From an uncultured Bacteroidales bacterium (lineage in GTDB: Bacteria; Bacteroidota; Bacteroidia; Bacteroidales; Muribaculaceae): a stretch of DNA of 42,796 nt. The position numbers were made by a program, and so were the translations under genes. The notes below the pieces were generated by a model, which was not told where the DNA came from, searched no databases, and worked only from the letters and a program-made list of their open reading frames with translations. The stretch lies in contig CACYCT010000068.1 in assembly GCA_902772965.1 (NCBI GenBank), positions 1 through 42,796 on the forward strand. The letters are read 5' to 3'. Positions 21,802 to 32,043 of this stretch are shown in pieces (position 1 is the stretch's first letter; every line of letters begins with the position of its first letter).

Positions 21802-23781
21802 TTATTCGGGGTTAAAGGGTGGGGGCGTGTTTTCTTCTTGTTGGGCTGCCTGTGCCTGTTTGCGTTTTTCCTCATCCTGGAGGATTTCCTCGGTTCTGGA
21901 TTTCCATTGTCTGGGGCCGAAGATACGCTCGGCGTCTTCGGTGTAGATCACTTCGCGCTGCAGGAGCAGTTCGGCGAGTTGGTGGTGTCCGTCGGTGTAT
22001 TGGCGGAGTATGTCTTCGGCGCGCTTGTATTGGCTGTCGATGATGGCCTGCACTTCGGCGTCGATTTGCTGTGCGCGTGATTCTGAGTAGGGTTTGGTGA
22101 AGCCGTAGGATTCGCCCGAGGAGTCGTAGTAGGAGATGTTTGGCAGGTTGTCGCTCATGCCGTAGAATGTTACCATGGCGTAGGCGAGTTTTGTGGCTCG
22201 TTCGAGGTCGTTGAGTGCTCCGGTGTCGAGGAATCCGAGGTAGATTTGTTCGGCGACTCGTCCGGCCATGAGTGAGCAGATTTCGTCGAGCAGTGCCTGT
22301 TTGGGCTGCAGTTGGCGTTCTTCGGGCATGTACCATGCTGCTCCGAGTGCTTTTCCTCGCGGCACGATGGTGACTTTGATGAGCGGGTTGGCGTATTGTA
22401 GGTGCCAGCTGACGGTTGCGTGTCCGGCCTCGTGGTAAGCGATGGAGCGGCGCTCGTCTTCTGTGATGACTTTGGATTTCTTCTCGAGTCCGCCGATGAT
22501 TCGGTCGATGGCGTCCATGAAGTCTTGCCGCTGTACGGCCTGTTTTTTCCGTCGCGCTGCGATGAGTGCCGCCTCGTTGCATACGTTTGCGATGTCGGCT
22601 CCGGAGAATCCGGGTGTCTGGCGGGAGAGTTGGTCGATGTCGACCGAGCCGTCGGTTTTGACGTTGCGCAGGTGTACCTGGAAGATTTCTTTGCGGTCGG
22701 AGAGTTCGGGCAGTTCGACGTAGATTTGTCGGTCGAATCGTCCGGCTCGGAGTAGTGCCTTGTCGAGGATGTCGGCGCGGTTGGTTGCGGCGAGTATGAT
22801 TACGCCGCTGTTGGAGCCGAATCCGTCCATTTCGGTGAGGAGTTGGTTGAGTGTTGACTCTCGTTCGTCGTTTCCTCCCATGTTTGAGTTTCGTCCTCGT
22901 GCTCGTCCGACAGCGTAGATTTCGTCGATGAACACGATGCATGGCGCTTTTTCTTTGGCTTGGCGGAAGAGGTCTCGCACGCGGCTGGCTCCCACGCCGA
23001 CAAACATTTCGACGAAGTCGGAGCCGGACATGGAGAAGAACGGCACGTTTGCCTCTCCGGCGACGGCTTTGGCGAGCAGGGTCTTACCTGTTCCCGGCGG
23101 GCCTACGAGGAGTGCGCCTTTTGGAATTTTACCTCCGAGTTCGGTGTAGTGCTCGGGTGATTTGAGGAAGTCGACGATTTCGGCGATTTCGACTTTGGCC
23201 TCGGCGAGGCCTGCCACGTCTTCAAAGGTGACGCGTGTTTTTGCGTTGTCTTTGTCGAAGAGCATGGCTTTTGATTTTCCCACGCTGAAGATTCCTCCTG
23301 AGCCTCCGACACCGCCGCCGCTCATGCGCCGTGTGAAGAATATCCAGAAGGCGATCAGGAGCAGGATGGGTCCGAAGGCCCATATCCATGTGCCGTAGTC
23401 GGTGCCGTTCTCGTATGTGATTTCGCCTTTGAATTTTCCTTCCTGGTGCCAGGCCTCGGCTTTTTCCTCGAACCTGTCGAGCGAGCCGAATTTTGTGATG
23501 ATTTTCGCTTTGTATCCCCGTTTTGGTTCGTAGTGTTGGGCTTTGAAGACTTCGCGGGCGAGGGAGTCGGACAGGACGGCTTCGGCCTCGTTGCTGTTTC
23601 GGAGCACGACGATGTGCGTTACGCCACCCTGCGCGATGGTTTGCTCAAACTCAGACATGGACACCTCTTTGCTCATCGAGTTGTCGCTGAACCAGTACGC
23701 GGCCATCAGTCCGAGGAAGACGAGGGCGTACATCCAGTATAGGTTGAGTTTGAAACCGGTGTTGTTGCTTTTGTTGGCCAT
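21802..23781 (-). CDS. ftsH: ATP-dependent zinc metalloprotease FtsH
   Basis: Membrane-bound AAA+ protease that degrades misassembled membrane proteins and some regulators. The 659-residue product has two membrane helices (about 15-31 and 131-150) around a periplasmic domain, Walker A GPPGTGKT (227-234), Walker B IVFIDE (282-287), second region of homology with [19 protein letters not shown], and zinc site HEAGH (450-454) with a downstream ALNDLERAT Asp ligand. One oddity: the position after the Walker B DEI is Tyr289 (DEIYAVG) where DEIDAVG is usual. The catalytic DE pair is intact, so ATPase activity is still expected. It sits between rsfS and glnS with 17 and 16 base gaps. Confidence 0.96.
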
Positions 23782-23798
23782 TAATTATGTTGTGTGTG

Positions 23799-24170
23799 TT
23801 AGTCAAGGTCGGGTATGTTTTCCACGGGAGCGTCTGCCCAGAGCTGCTCGAGGTTGAAGCGGTCGCGGTAAGCGGGCAGGAAGACGTGTGCGAAGATGGA
23901 ACCGTAGTCGATAATGATCCACTGTGCGTTCTGGTATCCGTCGTAGTTGTATGGTCTGACACCGATTGTCTTCTCGACGTATTCCCTGATGGAGTCGGCG
24001 ATGGCTTCAACTTGAGTGGGCGTGTTGCCGTTTGCGATGACGAAGCCTTGTGTGGGTGCGTATTCGATGTCTTGCAGGTTAACGTGTGTGATGCGGTGCG
24101 CCTTTTTTTCCTGGGCGCCCTCGATGATTGCCTTTACGAGTGTGGCGTTGTCTATTGTGGGATTTTTCAT
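23799..24170 (-). CDS. rsfS: Ribosomal silencing factor RsfS
   Basis: Binds ribosomal protein L14 and blocks 30S-50S joining when nutrients are low. The 123-residue product shows the family core ADSIREYVEKTIGVRP and the signature NAQWIIIDYGSIFAHVF with YRDRFNLEQLW. The start at 24170 (MKNPTIDNATLVKAI) is preferred over an in-frame ATG at 24200 because it matches the family's N-terminus. It leads the rsfS-ftsH-glnS operon, a pairing with ftsH that is common in Bacteroidetes. Confidence 0.94.
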   Translation of the reverse strand: MKNPTIDNATLVKAIIEGAQEKKAHRITHVNLQDIEYAPTQGFVIANGNTPTQVEAIADSIREYVEKTIGVRPYNYDGYQNAQWIIIDYGSIFAHVFLPAYRDRFNLEQLWADAPVENIPDLD

Positions 24171-24204
24171 TAGGGGTTTGTTATGTGTCGTTTTAATCAA
24201 ACGG

Positions 24205-26098: not shown

Positions 26099-27112
26099 TT
26101 ATTTCTTTTTTGCGATGGCTTGGTTGCAGGTGAGAATAACGGTTTTGTAGATATCTTCGTCGTCACATCCGCGTGAGAGGTCGTTCACGGGCGCTCCGAG
26201 TCCTTGAAGCACGGGACCGACGGCTGTTGCTCCGGCGAGACGCTGCACGAGTTTGTATGCGATGTTTCCCACTTCGAGGCTGGGGAATACGAGCACGTTG
26301 GCGTGTCCGGCGATGTCGCTGCCCGGTGCTTTGCTTTCTCCGACGGAGGGCACGATGGCGGCGTCGGCCTGGAGTTCGCCGTCGATTTTCATGTCGGGGT
26401 TGAGTTGGCGCGCGATGGCGGTGGCTTGTGTCACCTTGTCGACGCGTTCGTGCTTTGCGCTGCCCTTGGTGGAGAAACTGAGCATGGCCACGCGGGGATT
26501 GATTCCTGCGAGGTCGCGGGCGGTGCGCTCGGTGAGTACGGCGATTTCGGCGAGTTGTTGCGCGTCGGGCTCGGGCACGACGGCGCAGTCGGCAAACACC
26601 ATCATGTCTTTCTCTCCGTAGGGACTTCCCGGAGGCAGGAGCATGATGAACGCTCCGCTGACGGTGCTCACGCCGGGGGCGGTTTTGAGCACTTGGAATG
26701 CGGCGCGGAGCACGTTTCCGGTGGTGTTCTGGGCTCCGGCGACTTGTCCGTCTGCATCACCGTGTTTTATCATCAGGCAGCCGAGGTAAAGCGGGTCGGT
26801 CGCTTTTTTGTGCGCCTCTTCGATTGTGATGCCTTTGCTCTTTCGCAGTTCGTAGAACAGTTGTGCGTACGGCTCGATTTGTCCGGCGTCGGCGGGGTCG
26901 ATGAACGTGGCGTGTTCAACGGCGTCGGCACCCAGTTGTTTGGCTTGTTCCATGATTTGCGCGCGGTTTCCGATGAGCACAACCTCTGCGATGCCCTCGC
27001 TGATGATACGGCCGGCGGCGCGAAGGGTTCTGGGCTCGTTGCTTTCGGGCAGAACAATGCGTTGGCGTTTTGCAACTGCTTGTTTTTTAAGTTGTTCGAA
27101 TAGTGGTTCCAT
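26099..27112 (-). CDS. pta: Phosphate acetyltransferase
   Basis: Converts acetyl-CoA and phosphate to acetyl phosphate, feeding acetate kinase. The 337-residue product is the short form of the enzyme, consisting only of the PTA_PTB catalytic domain: IVLPESNEPRTLRAAGRI, VAGAQNTTGNVLRAAFQVLKT, LPPGSPYGEKDMMVFADCAVVPEP, AMLSFSTKGSAKH and VGPVLQGLGAPVNDLSRGC. The N-terminal BioD-like and DRTGG domains of the long E. coli enzyme are absent, as is usual in Bacteroidetes. It is the first gene of the pta-ackA operon. Confidence 0.97.
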   Translation of the reverse strand: MEPLFEQLKKQAVAKRQRIVLPESNEPRTLRAAGRIISEGIAEVVLIGNRAQIMEQAKQLGADAVEHATFIDPADAGQIEPYAQLFYELRKSKGITIEEAHKKATDPLYLGCLMIKHGDADGQVAGAQNTTGNVLRAAFQVLKTAPGVSTVSGAFIMLLPPGSPYGEKDMMVFADCAVVPEPDAQQLAEIAVLTERTARDLAGINPRVAMLSFSTKGSAKHERVDKVTQATAIARQLNPDMKIDGELQADAAIVPSVGESKAPGSDIAGHANVLVFPSLEVGNIAYKLVQRLAGATAVGPVLQGLGAPVNDLSRGCDDEDIYKTVILTCNQAIAKKK

Positions 27113-27145: not shown

Positions 27146-27226
27146 CAAAATTACGCAAAATTTTGTGCGATATAGCTTTTTTAATGGTTAAAATGGGGTT
27201 AATTCGTAAACCTGTTTGTAATTTTG
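27146..27226. promoter_or_regulatory. Divergent -7 elements for pta and the RyR-domain gene
   Basis: TAATTTTG occurs on the minus strand at 27153-27146, 34 bases before the pta ATG, and on the plus strand at 27219-27226, 30 bases before the ATG at 27256. Neither has a good TTTG at -33. Confidence 0.5.
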
Positions 27227-27255: not shown

Positions 27256-29316
27256 ATGCGCCTTAGTACTTCTTTCATACGCCAATGGTGGAGCCGTTTG
27301 TTACGGTGGTTCGACCGGCTGTTTGCCCGGGGTTCGATATTGCAAGCGGTCTCGCTGATATCGTTGGTTCTTGTGTTTGTTGTTCTGCTAACGTGCCTGA
27401 GTTATTTTCTTTTCCGGCAGCAGGCTTCGTTCGGCCAGCATTTGCGCAAGATTGTATACCTATTTATATATCCCGACAGTTTCGGCGAGGTGAAAAAACA
27501 ACCACAGGGTTTGTGGTTCTACACCTTCACATTGGTTTCCGGCACGGTGATTGTGGGTGGTCTGCTGATTTCCGTGTTGACGAATATGCTTCAAAACCGT
27601 GTGCGTCGGGTTCGTGGCGGTTACGTTGCCTACCGTCACATGAGCGACCACATTCTCGTGATTGGCTACGATGAGATTGTGCCCCATTTGGTGGCTCGGA
27701 TATGCGCCCAGCACCCCGGCCGCGATGTGCTGGTTCAGAGTGTTGTTCCGGCCCAGCAGGTACGCAACGCCGTTTTCGCCGCCACGCCCGATGGCGATGA
27801 GAAACACATATTCATCTATATCGGCCGTCGGGATTCGCGTGATGACCTGTCGCGTTTGCGTCCGTGGAAAGCCCGCGAGATCTTTGTTATCGGCGACCGC
27901 CATAGCGATGACCACGACGCGCTCAATATGGAGTGTATAAGAATTTTGTCGAAATTGCTTATGCAGCCCGAAAATCGTCCCAAACACAGGATTCCGATGA
28001 ATGTGCTGTTTGAGGACCGCGCCACAACCATCGCCTTTCAAACCACCGACGTTGCCAGAGAGATTCAAAGATACCTCAATCTGTATCCGTTGAATTTCTA
28101 CGAGAATTGGAGCCGTCGCGCTTTGGCCGGTGAATTGATAGGTACCCACTCGTTGGTACAACTTGATCGCGGCGACGATTCCGAAAGAAACGGATTGGAC
28201 GGCCCGCCGGGGATTGTGCGCGGCAGCGAGCGAAGGGCGCAACTGGTGGTGGTCGGAATGTCGCGCATGGGAATCACCCTCGGGATTCAGGCGGCGCATA
28301 TTATGCATTACCCCAACTTCCGCCCCGGCAACGGATTGGCCAGCAAGGTAACCTTCATCGACCTCAACGCCGACACCGAGATGCGGCGGTTCATGTGCCT
28401 GCACCAGCCTTTCTTCGATGTCCAGGACACGTATTACACCGACCTGACCGAATCGGGCGACCACCGGCGGCAGACCATCGCCGCGCGGCGGTTCACGGGC
28501 GAGGACGCCAATTTTGTCGGTGTGCATTTCGAGTTTGTGAAAGGCGACATCTATTCCGATGCCGTGCGCGGGCTGCTCAGCGACTTAGCCTCGGATACCA
28601 ACCTGTCGCTCACCGTTGCCATATGTCTGAACCACTCGCGGCAGAATGCCTCGGCAGCGATGTCGTTGCCGCAAAACCTGTATGACACCGAACGCAGAAT
28701 CCCCATCCTTGTCCAGCAACGCACCTCCGGCGCCATCTTCGACACCCTCGCAGCCGACCAGGACAACCGGTTCTGCAACGTGTTCCCCTTCGGTATGCTT
28801 GAATGCGGCTATGACCTTGACCACAACCTTGAGCGTATGGCCATGCAGATGTACAACACATACCGGCAAGCGCAAATCAACCAATTGGGGCAGTTGTCCG
28901 AGTCCATTGAGCAGTTGTGGAACGAAGGCTCCATCTTGAGGAAATGGTCAAGCATTCACGCCGTCACATACTTCCCCACCAAACTGCGCTCGCTCGGCCT
29001 CCAGAAAACCGGCAAACCAATCAGCCTCACTCCTGAGAACCGCGCCGATGCCTGCGAGATTGAGCACCGCCGCTGGTGTGCCGAACGGTTGCTGCTCGGA
29101 GTTAGCCGTCAGACGGAAGGCGAACCGAAAGCCCCGTTCCGGCACCGTTGCCTCGCTCCGTACGACCAAGTGAAACAACTCCCTCAACCTCATAATGAAG
29201 AAGGCGTGGGACAATACGAACTCAACGATCTGGCCACCCTGCAAGCCATCCCGATGATGCTTGAAGTGATTAACTCCACCCGAAGTCAAACCGCGAAAAA
29301 CAGCAAACAAGTCTGA
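27256..29316 (+). CDS. CASTOR/POLLUX-like membrane protein with tandem TrkA-N (RCK) domains and a C-terminal RyR domain
   Basis: The 686-residue product has a basic N-terminus, two membrane helices (about 28-52 and 88-110) and a pore-loop-like segment between them (KIVYLFIYPDSFGE, 65-78). Next comes LISVLTNMLQNRVRRVRGG, the juxtamembrane stretch seen in CASTOR/POLLUX-type channels. Two Rossmann TrkA-N/RCK-like domains follow: DHILVIGYDEIVPHLVARI (131-149) and AQLVVVGMSRMGITLGIQAA (328-347). The C-terminus (about 595-675) looks like a RyR domain: ACEIEHRRWCAERLLLGV and HRCLAPYDQ. Known families: RCK domains gate ion channels through bound nucleotides or ions; RyR domains are suspected small-molecule sensors. 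Inferred: a ligand-gated ion channel. No K-selective TVGYG filter is present. It is a single-gene unit next to gyrA. Confidence 0.7.
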   Translation: MRLSTSFIRQWWSRLLRWFDRLFARGSILQAVSLISLVLVFVVLLTCLSYFLFRQQASFGQHLRKIVYLFIYPDSFGEVKKQPQGLWFYTFTLVSGTVIVGGLLISVLTNMLQNRVRRVRGGYVAYRHMSDHILVIGYDEIVPHLVARICAQHPGRDVLVQSVVPAQQVRNAVFAATPDGDEKHIFIYIGRRDSRDDLSRLRPWKAREIFVIGDRHSDDHDALNMECIRILSKLLMQPENRPKHRIPMNVLFEDRATTIAFQTTDVAREIQRYLNLYPLNFYENWSRRALAGELIGTHSLVQLDRGDDSERNGLDGPPGIVRGSERRAQLVVVGMSRMGITLGIQAAHIMHYPNFRPGNGLASKVTFIDLNADTEMRRFMCLHQPFFDVQDTYYTDLTESGDHRRQTIAARRFTGEDANFVGVHFEFVKGDIYSDAVRGLLSDLASDTNLSLTVAICLNHSRQNASAAMSLPQNLYDTERRIPILVQQRTSGAIFDTLAADQDNRFCNVFPFGMLECGYDLDHNLERMAMQMYNTYRQAQINQLGQLSESIEQLWNEGSILRKWSSIHAVTYFPTKLRSLGLQKTGKPISLTPENRADACEIEHRRWCAERLLLGVSRQTEGEPKAPFRHRCLAPYDQVKQLPQPHNEEGVGQYELNDLATLQAIPMMLEVINSTRSQTAKNSKQV

Positions 29317-29463: not shown

Positions 29464-32043
29464 ATGGAAAACGATCGAATATTTGAGATTAATATCGAGA
29501 ATGAGATGCGTTCGAGTTACATCGACTACTCCATGTCGGTGATAGTCTCGCGCGCCCTTCCCGATGTTCGCGACGGCTTTAAACCCGTGCACCGGCGCAT
29601 ACTTTTCGGTATGCAGCGACTGCGCAACTTCAACAACCAGCCCTACAAGAAATCAGCACGTATTGTGGGTGACGTGCTCGGTAAGTATCACCCCCACGGC
29701 GACTCGTCGGTCTACTACGCCATGGTGCGCCTCGCCCAGGACTGGGCCATGCGCTACCCCCTCGTTGACGGACACGGAAACTTCGGCTCCGTTGACGGCG
29801 ACAGCCCCGCGGCCATGCGTTACACCGAAACACGACTCGCCAAAATGGGCGAGATGATGATGGACAACCTCGACGAGGACACCGTCGACTTCATGCCCAA
29901 CTTCGACGCCACCCTGACAGAGCCCGAGGTGCTTCCGACACGATTCCCCAACCTGCTCGTCAACGGAGCGTCGGGCATCGCCGTGGGTATGGCGACCAAT
30001 ATGGCCCCGCACAACCTGAGCGAATGTATTGACGGATGTATCGCCCTGCTCGAAAACCCCGAGATGGAAATAGTCGACCTGATGCAATACATCAAAGCCC
30101 CCGACTTCCCAACCGGCGGAATCATCTACGGAACGCAAGGCGTGCGCGACGCGTTCGAAACCGGACGGGGGCGCGTCATTATCCGGGCGCGATATGAAAT
30201 CGAATCCGAGCACGGACACGACCGGATCGTGGTCTCTGAACTGCCGTACAACGTAAACAAACGCGAACTCATCAGCCACATCGCCACACTCGTCGAAGAC
30301 AAGAAAATCGAAGGCATCGCCGACCTCAACGACGAGTCCGACCGCCACGGAATGCGCATCGTGATCGATATCAAGAAAGACCACAATGCCAACGTGGTGA
30401 TGAACAAACTGTTCAAACTCACACAACTGCAATACTCCTTCAGCGTTAACAACGTTTGCATCGTCGACAAATACCCGCAAACCGTTAACCTCAAGCAACT
30501 TCTGCAATACTTCCTCGACCACCGCCACGAAGTGGTCATTCGCCGCACACGCTTCCAACTCAAGAAAGCCGAAGACCGCGCCCACATCGTAAAAGGTCTC
30601 ATCATCGCCAGCGACAACATCGACGAAGTGGTTCGCATCATCCGCTCGAGCAAAACCACCGAAGAGGCATGCCAGCGACTGTGCGAGCGATTCGACCTCG
30701 ACGACATCCAGGCCCGCGCCATCGTGGAGATGCGCCTGCGGCAACTCACCAACCTCGAGCAGAACAAACTTCACGACGAACTCGACCAACTGCTCAAAAC
30801 CATCGAGTTCCTCAACTCCATTCTGAACGACCCCGCCGTGTGCCGGAAAGTGATAGAGGAGGAACTGCTCGAAGTGAAAGAGAAGTTCGGCGACGAGCGC
30901 AGAACAGAAATCTGCCCCGACGACGGCGAGATGAACGCCGAAGACTTCTACTCCGACGACCCGATGATCATCACCATCAGCCACTTCGGATACATCAAGC
31001 GCACGCCCCTGCGCGAATACCGCGCCCAGGCACGCGGCGGAGTAGGCTCGCGCGGAAGCGACACACGCGACGAGGACTTCATCGAATACGTCTATCAGGC
31101 AACCAACCACAACTATATGCTCTTCTTCACCGCCCTCGGACGCTGCTACTGGCTGCGTGTGTTCCAGATACCCGAAGGCTCGAAGAGCAGTAAAGGTAGG
31201 GCCATTCAGAACCTGCTCAACATCGGACCCGAAAACCGGATTATGGCGTTCGTCAGAGCCACACAACTGCTCGACCCCGACTACAACAGCAAGCACTTCA
31301 TCATGTTCGCCACCAAGAACGGCACCGTGAAGCGCACCGCCCTGAGCGAGTTCTCCCGCCCGCGCGCCAACGGTGTGCGCGCGCTCAACATCGCCGACGG
31401 CGACCAACTCGTCGGAGCCGTGATGACCGAAGGCGACAGCGAAATCCTGCTCGCCAACCGCAACGGACGCGCCATCCGGTTCAACGAGACACAAGTGCGC
31501 TCCATGGGACGCACCGCCACCGGTGTGCGCGGTATGACCCTCGACAACGACGAGGATGCCGTAATCGGCATGATCTGCATGCGCGTGACAGCTACCGACG
31601 ATGTGCTCGTGGTGAGCGAGCAAGGTATGGGCAAGCGAAGCCAACTCGCCGACTATCGTGTGACCAATCGCGGCGGTAAAGGTGTTACAACAATTAACAT
31701 TACCGAGCGCACCCGCAAACTTATTGCTATTAAGAATGTAAACGACGATAACGACCTCGTGATCATCAACAAGAGCGGAATCATGATTCGCCTCAACGTG
31801 CGATCGCTCCGCATCGTTGGCCGTGCAACACAAGGCGTGCGACTGATCAACCTCGAAAAGAAAAACGACCAGATCGCCTCTGTCTGCAAGGTCACATCAG
31901 AACCTGAAGCCACCGACGAAACCAACCTCGCCGATGCCTTTAACGAACCCGACGTCGACAACCCCAACATCGACAATCCTACAGACACCGCTGACGACAA
32001 CAACGCCGACGGACAAACCGAACAAGACGAAAACCAAGCATAA
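29464..32043 (+). CDS. gyrA: DNA gyrase subunit A
   Basis: Breaks and rejoins DNA in the gyrase heterotetramer to introduce negative supercoils. The 859-residue product has the winged-helix core with catalytic Tyr120 (AAMRYTETRL), a coiled-coil arm (about 370-470), and a C-terminal six-bladed beta-pinwheel. The GyrA box in the last part appears as VTNRGGKGV, a shortened form of QRRGGKG. The tail (about 815-859) is highly acidic. In the quinolone pocket the sequence is HGDSSVYYAMV: Ser81 corresponds to E. coli Ser83 and Tyr85 to Asp87. It is followed 23 bases later by the TPR gene and may share its transcript. Confidence 0.97.
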   Translation: MENDRIFEINIENEMRSSYIDYSMSVIVSRALPDVRDGFKPVHRRILFGMQRLRNFNNQPYKKSARIVGDVLGKYHPHGDSSVYYAMVRLAQDWAMRYPLVDGHGNFGSVDGDSPAAMRYTETRLAKMGEMMMDNLDEDTVDFMPNFDATLTEPEVLPTRFPNLLVNGASGIAVGMATNMAPHNLSECIDGCIALLENPEMEIVDLMQYIKAPDFPTGGIIYGTQGVRDAFETGRGRVIIRARYEIESEHGHDRIVVSELPYNVNKRELISHIATLVEDKKIEGIADLNDESDRHGMRIVIDIKKDHNANVVMNKLFKLTQLQYSFSVNNVCIVDKYPQTVNLKQLLQYFLDHRHEVVIRRTRFQLKKAEDRAHIVKGLIIASDNIDEVVRIIRSSKTTEEACQRLCERFDLDDIQARAIVEMRLRQLTNLEQNKLHDELDQLLKTIEFLNSILNDPAVCRKVIEEELLEVKEKFGDERRTEICPDDGEMNAEDFYSDDPMIITISHFGYIKRTPLREYRAQARGGVGSRGSDTRDEDFIEYVYQATNHNYMLFFTALGRCYWLRVFQIPEGSKSSKGRAIQNLLNIGPENRIMAFVRATQLLDPDYNSKHFIMFATKNGTVKRTALSEFSRPRANGVRALNIADGDQLVGAVMTEGDSEILLANRNGRAIRFNETQVRSMGRTATGVRGMTLDNDEDAVIGMICMRVTATDDVLVVSEQGMGKRSQLADYRVTNRGGKGVTTINITERTRKLIAIKNVNDDNDLVIINKSGIMIRLNVRSLRIVGRATQGVRLINLEKKNDQIASVCKVTSEPEATDETNLADAFNEPDVDNPNIDNPTDTADDNNADGQTEQDENQA

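Follow-up and report, generated by a model that had tools for sequence, protein, structure and literature searches.

A predicted RyR-domain channel of Bacteroidales and the linkage of its relatives to TIR genes

The gene and its surroundings

The window, by which we mean the whole stretch of 42,796 nucleotides of Bacteroidales DNA analysed here, holds an intact open reading frame that begins with an ATG at 27256, encodes 686 amino acids on the forward strand and ends with a stop codon at 29316. On one side lies pta (26099-27112, -), divergent from the channel gene, and on the other gyrA (29464-32043, +). The position of the reading frame agrees with the first-pass annotation, which had placed the gene beside gyrA and pta. 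The other window genes that were tested are also housekeeping genes (Glu/Gln-tRNA synthetase, ExbD, TonB, glutamate dehydrogenase and 2-hydroxyacid dehydrogenase), and the channel gene is similar to the adjoining genes in GC and GC3. Upstream of its ATG is a match to TAnnTTTG, which we take to be the -7 promoter motif of Bacteroidetes. A pattern search found another match ahead of gyrA, and together the two suggest that the channel is transcribed separately, as a single gene. The features discussed below are as follows.

27256..29316, +: whole gene, TM-pore-TM + RCK + Rossmann + RyR, 686 aa (open reading frame, homologs)
27219..27226, +: TAATTTTG, TAnnTTTG match 30 nt 5' of the ATG (pattern match, no statistics)
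27340..27411, +: predicted TM1, about residues 29-52 (sequence, low-confidence AF2 secondary structure, alignment with TM1 of homologs)
27433..27480, +: predicted pore helix and filter region, about residues 60-75, YLFIYPDS (alignment)
27502..27633, +: predicted TM2 and juxtamembrane linker, residues 83-126, with G96, G122 and Y126 invariant in 22 homologs (alignment, AF2)
27637..28155, +: RCK domain 1, about residues 128-300, with invariant G137, G213 and D221 (Pfam, alignment, profile, Foldseek)
28219..28890, +: second Rossmann domain, residues 322-545, with a GMSRMG loop and invariant G334, H351, F512 and G513 (alignment, AF2/Foldseek)
28981..29295, +: C-terminal RyR domain, about residues 576-680 (Pfam, profile A3, RyR alignment)
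29065..29067, +: His604, equivalent to RyDEP His75 (catalytic base), in 21 of 22 homologs (alignment)
29074..29076, +: Trp607, equivalent to RyDEP Trp78 (adenine stacking), invariant (alignment)
29143..29145, +: His630, equivalent to RyDEP His100 (phosphates), invariant in 22 homologs (alignment)
29227..29229, +: Asp658, equivalent to RyDEP Asp117 (catalytic acid), invariant (alignment)

Two further observations concern the same region. An antisense open frame of 355 aa inside the channel gene (27460-28527, -) has no sign of being a gene and is probably a by-product of GC-rich codons. Within a few kb of the channel (21802-24200) are an FtsH-like and an RsfS-like gene, both recognised by eye, and genes of the same two kinds, also recognised by eye, directly adjoin the RyR-channel pair in genome G057 (L039:4815-7551). 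The window and L039 channels are only 28% identical, and the shared proximity may reflect an ancestral site or a coincidence.

Architecture of the predicted channel

The gene product is predicted to be a subunit of a two-TM/RCK-type membrane channel, with its parts in the order TM-pore-TM, RCK1, second Rossmann domain and RyR. Taken alone, the protein has sub-threshold Pfam matches to Slo-like_RCK at residues 129-228 (E = 0.036) and to RyR at residues 600-643 (E = 0.11; 13.2 bits, short of the cut-off of 27.4). It has no Pfam match to PF06241, the CASTOR middle domain, and single-sequence searches of NCBIfam, PADLOC and PHROGs gave no matches. Homologs from the genus and the order, 22-32% identical to the window protein, were aligned (A2, 22 rows), and profiles of separate parts of the protein were run against PDB sequences. 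With the C-terminal profile (A3), 15 of the 16 matches were RyR domains, the best being 6uhi (E = 6.5e-7), followed by 3nrt, 4n05 and RyR1/2/3; the sixteenth was a weak match to hemoglobin. The profile of the TM region and RCK1 (A4) matched GsuK (4gx0, E = 4.6e-5), DMI1 (7vm8, 0.0013), CASTOR (6o6j, 0.0034) and MthK. Relatives outside the order that match the same family profile pass the Pfam cut-offs for both TrkA_N and RyR, at 3.8e-9 and 2.3e-10 in L113 and at 2.6e-12 and 2.7e-15 in L114. The curated RyR score is also reached in L059 (4.5e-7) and L067.

These results bear out much of the first-pass annotation, which had described a two-TM/RCK channel with CASTOR/POLLUX affinity and a RyR domain at its end. 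The channel assignment holds for the N-terminal half, given the A4 matches, and the RyR domain is real, given the A3 matches and the relatives above the Pfam cut-offs. The C-terminal placement of that domain stands, but its limits are better set at about 576-680 than at 595-675. The earlier observation is confirmed, and the interpretation attached to it is partly supported.

The second Rossmann domain found no solved homolog by sequence when its profile was run against the PDB. The one PDB phmmer match of the window protein, to an acetyltransferase over this domain (E = 0.003), is weak and was taken as chance, and matches of its profile to G-alpha subunits (E = 0.007-0.2) were read in the same way. 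The AF2 models were built from an alignment of two sequences only and are of low confidence, with a mean pLDDT of 48 at full length and 51 for residues 320-686. Their Rossmann cores are moderate to confident (pLDDT up to 80-90 in the core of the second), and residues 511-686, including the RyR part, fall below 50 in both models. Foldseek searches with the full low-confidence model placed the CASTOR and DMI1 gating rings on top (E = 3e-8), Slo1 next and TrkA and MthK lower; because the models are poor, we treat these matches as supporting evidence only. The second Rossmann domain matched G6PD and other Rossmann folds, Slo1 and TrkA, and in the model it looks like a dinucleotide-binding Rossmann fold.

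By sequence comparison, the TM pair and RCK1 are of the CASTOR type. Bacterial CASTORs match the family profile over the TM region and RCK1 (its first 237 positions, at about 1e-20), and the linker that follows TM2 in the family is similar to theirs. The true CASTOR homologs of Bacteroidales (L063 and L064) match PF06241 at about 1e-33. In the alignment the filter motif reads xxDPGN in most of the family and xxDPGT in bacterial CASTORs, and the Asp, which is essential for conduction in CASTOR (PMC6697748), is kept at the filter column in most members. The filter of the window protein reads IYPDS, with Tyr72 in the column of the aligned Asp and Asp74 two residues on. A two-residue insertion would align D74-S75 with the ID-S of the sister clade, in which case D74 could be the filter Asp. 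Membership of the window protein in the CASTOR family itself was considered and rejected, as PF06241 is absent and the filter fits neither AD[SA]GNHA nor DPG with its Asp. The K+ filter T-V-G-Y-G is absent from the window sequence.

The RyR domain offers a more specific clue to function. E603, R606, W607, H630 and D658 do not vary among the 22 channel proteins, 21 of which also have H604. An alignment of the window protein with 12 standalone RyR proteins and the Pfam-confirmed RyR domains of L059, L113, L114 and L067 puts H604, W607, H630 and D658 in the pocket columns, with H604, W607 and D658 invariant in all rows. We equate these residues with those of the phage protein RyDEP from the published residue spacing and the RyR family alignment, there being no structure of the window protein, and on this comparison the ligand pocket is conserved in the window protein and throughout the family. 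RyDEP binds and cleaves isomers of cADPR; in its pocket Trp78 stacks against the adenine, the phosphates are held by His100, and the pair His75 and Asp117 makes contact with the terminal ribose and cleaves it (PMC13232231). The equivalent residues of RyR3 also bind ligands, and since the RyR3 pocket takes an ATP analogue as well, its conservation leaves the ligand unfixed (PMC13232231). Another RyR architecture occurs in genomes of genus g262, where proteins of about 880-930 aa (e.g., G597:C2:460439-460867) have a match to the family profile that is confined to its C-terminal end, the RyR part.

Family neighbourhoods and the window copy

Gene neighbourhoods of 22 family loci were surveyed with TIR_2 and RyR searches of the whole genomes. 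At 7 of the 22 loci a TIR_2 gene lies within 5 kb of the channel, against an expectation of 0.20 based on how many TIRs each genome has; for standalone RyR genes and a distance of 2 kb, the figures are 9 of 22 observed and 0.04 expected. The simulation behind these expectations placed genes at random and counted related loci as independent, so that its P values are not literal; the excess is large. About a third of the loci have neither neighbour. Some of the arrangements are operon-like in their spacing: in L042 channel, RyR and TIR genes follow one another on one strand with a 13-nt gap and a 4-nt overlap, channel and TIR overlap by 11 nt in L113, and the TIR precedes the channel by 4 nt in L114 and by 35 nt in L059, each time on the same strand. 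The Glu of a WVxxE-type motif, presumably the catalytic residue of TIR NADases, is retained in each of the 17 neighbouring TIRs that were inspected. Bacteroides TIRs are known to produce cADPR and variant cADPR (PMC9092222). PADLOC gave weak matches to the TIRs and has no model for the channel.

As a control, no TIR was found on the same contig as any of 24 CASTOR-type channels without RyR, in a set where many genomes are fragmented and roughly half of the control genomes lack TIRs altogether. The same set of control genomes contains three RyR-bearing channels with an adjacent TIR (G441, G462 and G644). From these comparisons of gene order, the RyR-channel family is linked both to TIR genes and to genes for standalone RyR proteins. 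The first-pass annotation had pointed to nucleotide-signal and conflict systems, and at the level of the family these neighbours uphold nucleotide signalling and, probably, the link to conflict.

A number of loci show further variation. In G462 (C65:146231-147371) the gene after the RyR-bearing channel is a TIR interrupted by an in-frame stop, possibly a decayed pair. Genome G871 encodes a channel relative of 1377 aa with C-terminal formylglycine-generating-enzyme-like (FGE-sulfatase) domains (L102:6065-10195, -), and the TIR proteins beside the L113 and L114 channels carry WD40 and Fib_succ_major modules. Relatives without TM helices (about 485-530 aa; L055, L065, L066, L105, L106 and L108) sit in a recurrent conserved cluster, whose other members are an FHA-looking protein, a kinase-like protein and large secreted-type proteins, and some of these clusters also have STAND-, SIR2- or TIR-looking genes (apart from partners that were run through Pfam, these labels were assigned by eye). 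SLOG-looking genes, recognised by eye from a GVVGHR/GVTGHR start, adjoin two family loci (L059:9148-11001 and L067:4659-6341) and would represent another nucleotide-linked fold beside the family. The plasmid collection gave no match to the channel, and IMG/VR scans for further homologs gave none. The phage collection gave a single match, 22% identical over residues 84-311 (TM2 and RCK1), at the end of an unannotated fecal record (MT836850.1:32-892).

The window copy itself stands apart from these loci. Its genome (95.8% complete, 198 contigs) has no match to TIR_2 or ThsB_TIR and no other match to RyR. A search of 101 genomes of the genus recovered the full-length form in 5. Where congeners were examined, gyrA and pta were not adjacent, and the junctions read in them contained no channel gene. 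The gene is accessory, not core, contrary to the earlier view that it was probably core and not an island gene. In the tree it is sister (support 94/91, not starred) to a clade that includes the TIR- and RyR-linked L057 and L042, and its branch (1.51) is among the longest in the group. Given this sister clade and the long branch, loss of a partner is the simpler reading. The best reading of the sequence evidence is that the window copy is an orphan of the family, which would either hear an ADP-ribosyl nucleotide from another source or have drifted from its original role. As its own genome has no detectable TIR partner, a role of this copy in stress or defence stays inferential.

Proposed mechanism and comparison with known systems

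We suspect that the members of the family are channels gated by a TIR signal, serving as the effector in a Thoeris-like alarm system of which the window copy is an orphan (probability of roughly 0.55). The family is probably Thoeris-like. In this scenario, four subunits would assemble into a tetramer whose two Rossmann domains form a cytosolic gating ring, and the RyR domains would sit along the rim of this ring. From NAD+, a TIR enzyme would make an isomer of cyclic ADP-ribose or a related nucleotide with an ADP-ribosyl group, which the RyR domain would bind through His604, Trp607, His630 and Asp658. The ring could then move TM2 via the conserved linker and open the pore, resulting in ion flux and depolarisation of the membrane, and the small RyR protein encoded beside many of the channels may be a buffer or a hydrolase of the signal. 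The ligand, the ion, the tetramer, the gating, the ion flux and the defence role are what we infer for the family. More tentatively, and at somewhat less than even odds, the RyR domain of the TIR-coupled channels of Bacteroidota could be a direct receptor for a cADPR-type signal, such that a NAD+ derivative made by the TIR opens a CASTOR-like pore.

A rather unlikely alternative is that the protein serves homeostasis, as a channel whose RCK domains gate it in response to NAD(H), ATP or Ca2+ and which has no TIR link here, the RyR domain binding an ordinary adenine nucleotide. The housekeeping neighbourhood and TIR-free genome of the window copy are consistent with this, as is the ATP analogue in the RyR3 pocket (PMC13232231), but the strong linkage of the family to TIR and RyR genes, its patchy accessory distribution and the presence of TIR operons in distant classes argue against it. 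We consider it less likely still that the RyR domain is an enzyme and not a sensor, hydrolysing cADPR isomers as RyDEP does and either shutting off or resetting the channel or scavenging products of NAD breakdown. The His75/Asp117 dyad of RyDEP is nearly invariant here as H604 and D658; however, members with the RyR fold can be pure binders (PMC13232231), the same residues bind ligands in animal RyRs, and a domain fused to a gating ring is more likely to be regulatory. That the window copy is a drifting relic, its reading frame intact but its pore non-conducting and its signal partner lost, is improbable: the altered filter, the long branch and a genome without TIR or standalone RyR would fit, but the 686-codon frame is intact, GC and GC3 resemble those of the neighbours, the glycine of the linker is kept along with all four residues of the RyR pocket, and D74-S75 could serve the filter.

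The linkage of RyR-channel homologs to TIR and standalone RyR genes appears to be new in the present analysis. A limited literature search found no paper joining RyR-domain channels to TIRs, and an earlier description is possible; PMC7016017 and PMC9503650 contain nothing on a prokaryotic RyR-channel link.

Several known systems share parts of the proposed channel. Like the ligand-gated K+ channels GsuK and MthK, it has two TM helices and a pore followed by Rossmann/RCK domains; unlike them, the window protein lacks the TVGYG K+ filter and has a RyR domain. With CASTOR, POLLUX and DMI1 it has in common an N-terminal FD-x-x-x-S motif, two pore helices, a glycine-bearing linker and RCK1, whereas it is without PF06241, has another second Rossmann domain and an added RyR domain, and differs in the filter motif. 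In the filter region the family has DPGN, bacterial CASTORs DPGT and the plant proteins AD[SA]GNHA.

The RyR domains of PF02026, among them animal RyR R12, 3nrt of B. thetaiotaomicron and phage RyDEP, share the pocket of H-x-x-W, H and D and are similar at the profile level. The window domain differs in having E-H-x-R-W in place of V-H-x-V-W, an insertion before the last Asp, a fusion to a channel and a sub-threshold Pfam score. Whether cADPR acts directly on ryanodine receptors is a long-open and disputed question. In a 2026 preprint the RyR domain of RyDEP, which acts on cADPR isomers, belongs to a phage counter-defence protein (PMC13232231). A bacterial channel with the same pocket and TIR-linked relatives may be a small, tractable system in which RyR turns a cADPR-type signal into ion flux.

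The closest parallel is Thoeris, in which the TIR protein ThsB is paired with ThsA of the SIR2-SLOG or TM-macro type, and TIR systems with these nucleotide-activated effectors are already known (PMC11204291). Relatives of the window protein likewise pair a TIR gene with a protein predicted to bind an ADP-ribosyl nucleotide, and the TM-macro variant also brings membrane helices and an ADPR-binding domain together (PMC11204291). Unlike Thoeris, the sensor would be RyR and the effector an RCK-type channel, the window copy is TIR-free, and the defence role is putative. If this reading is true, a gated ion channel joins the known effectors of TIR signalling, and the family would be a branch of TIR immunity with channels as effectors and would parallel, in prokaryotes, the disputed control of animal RyRs by cADPR.
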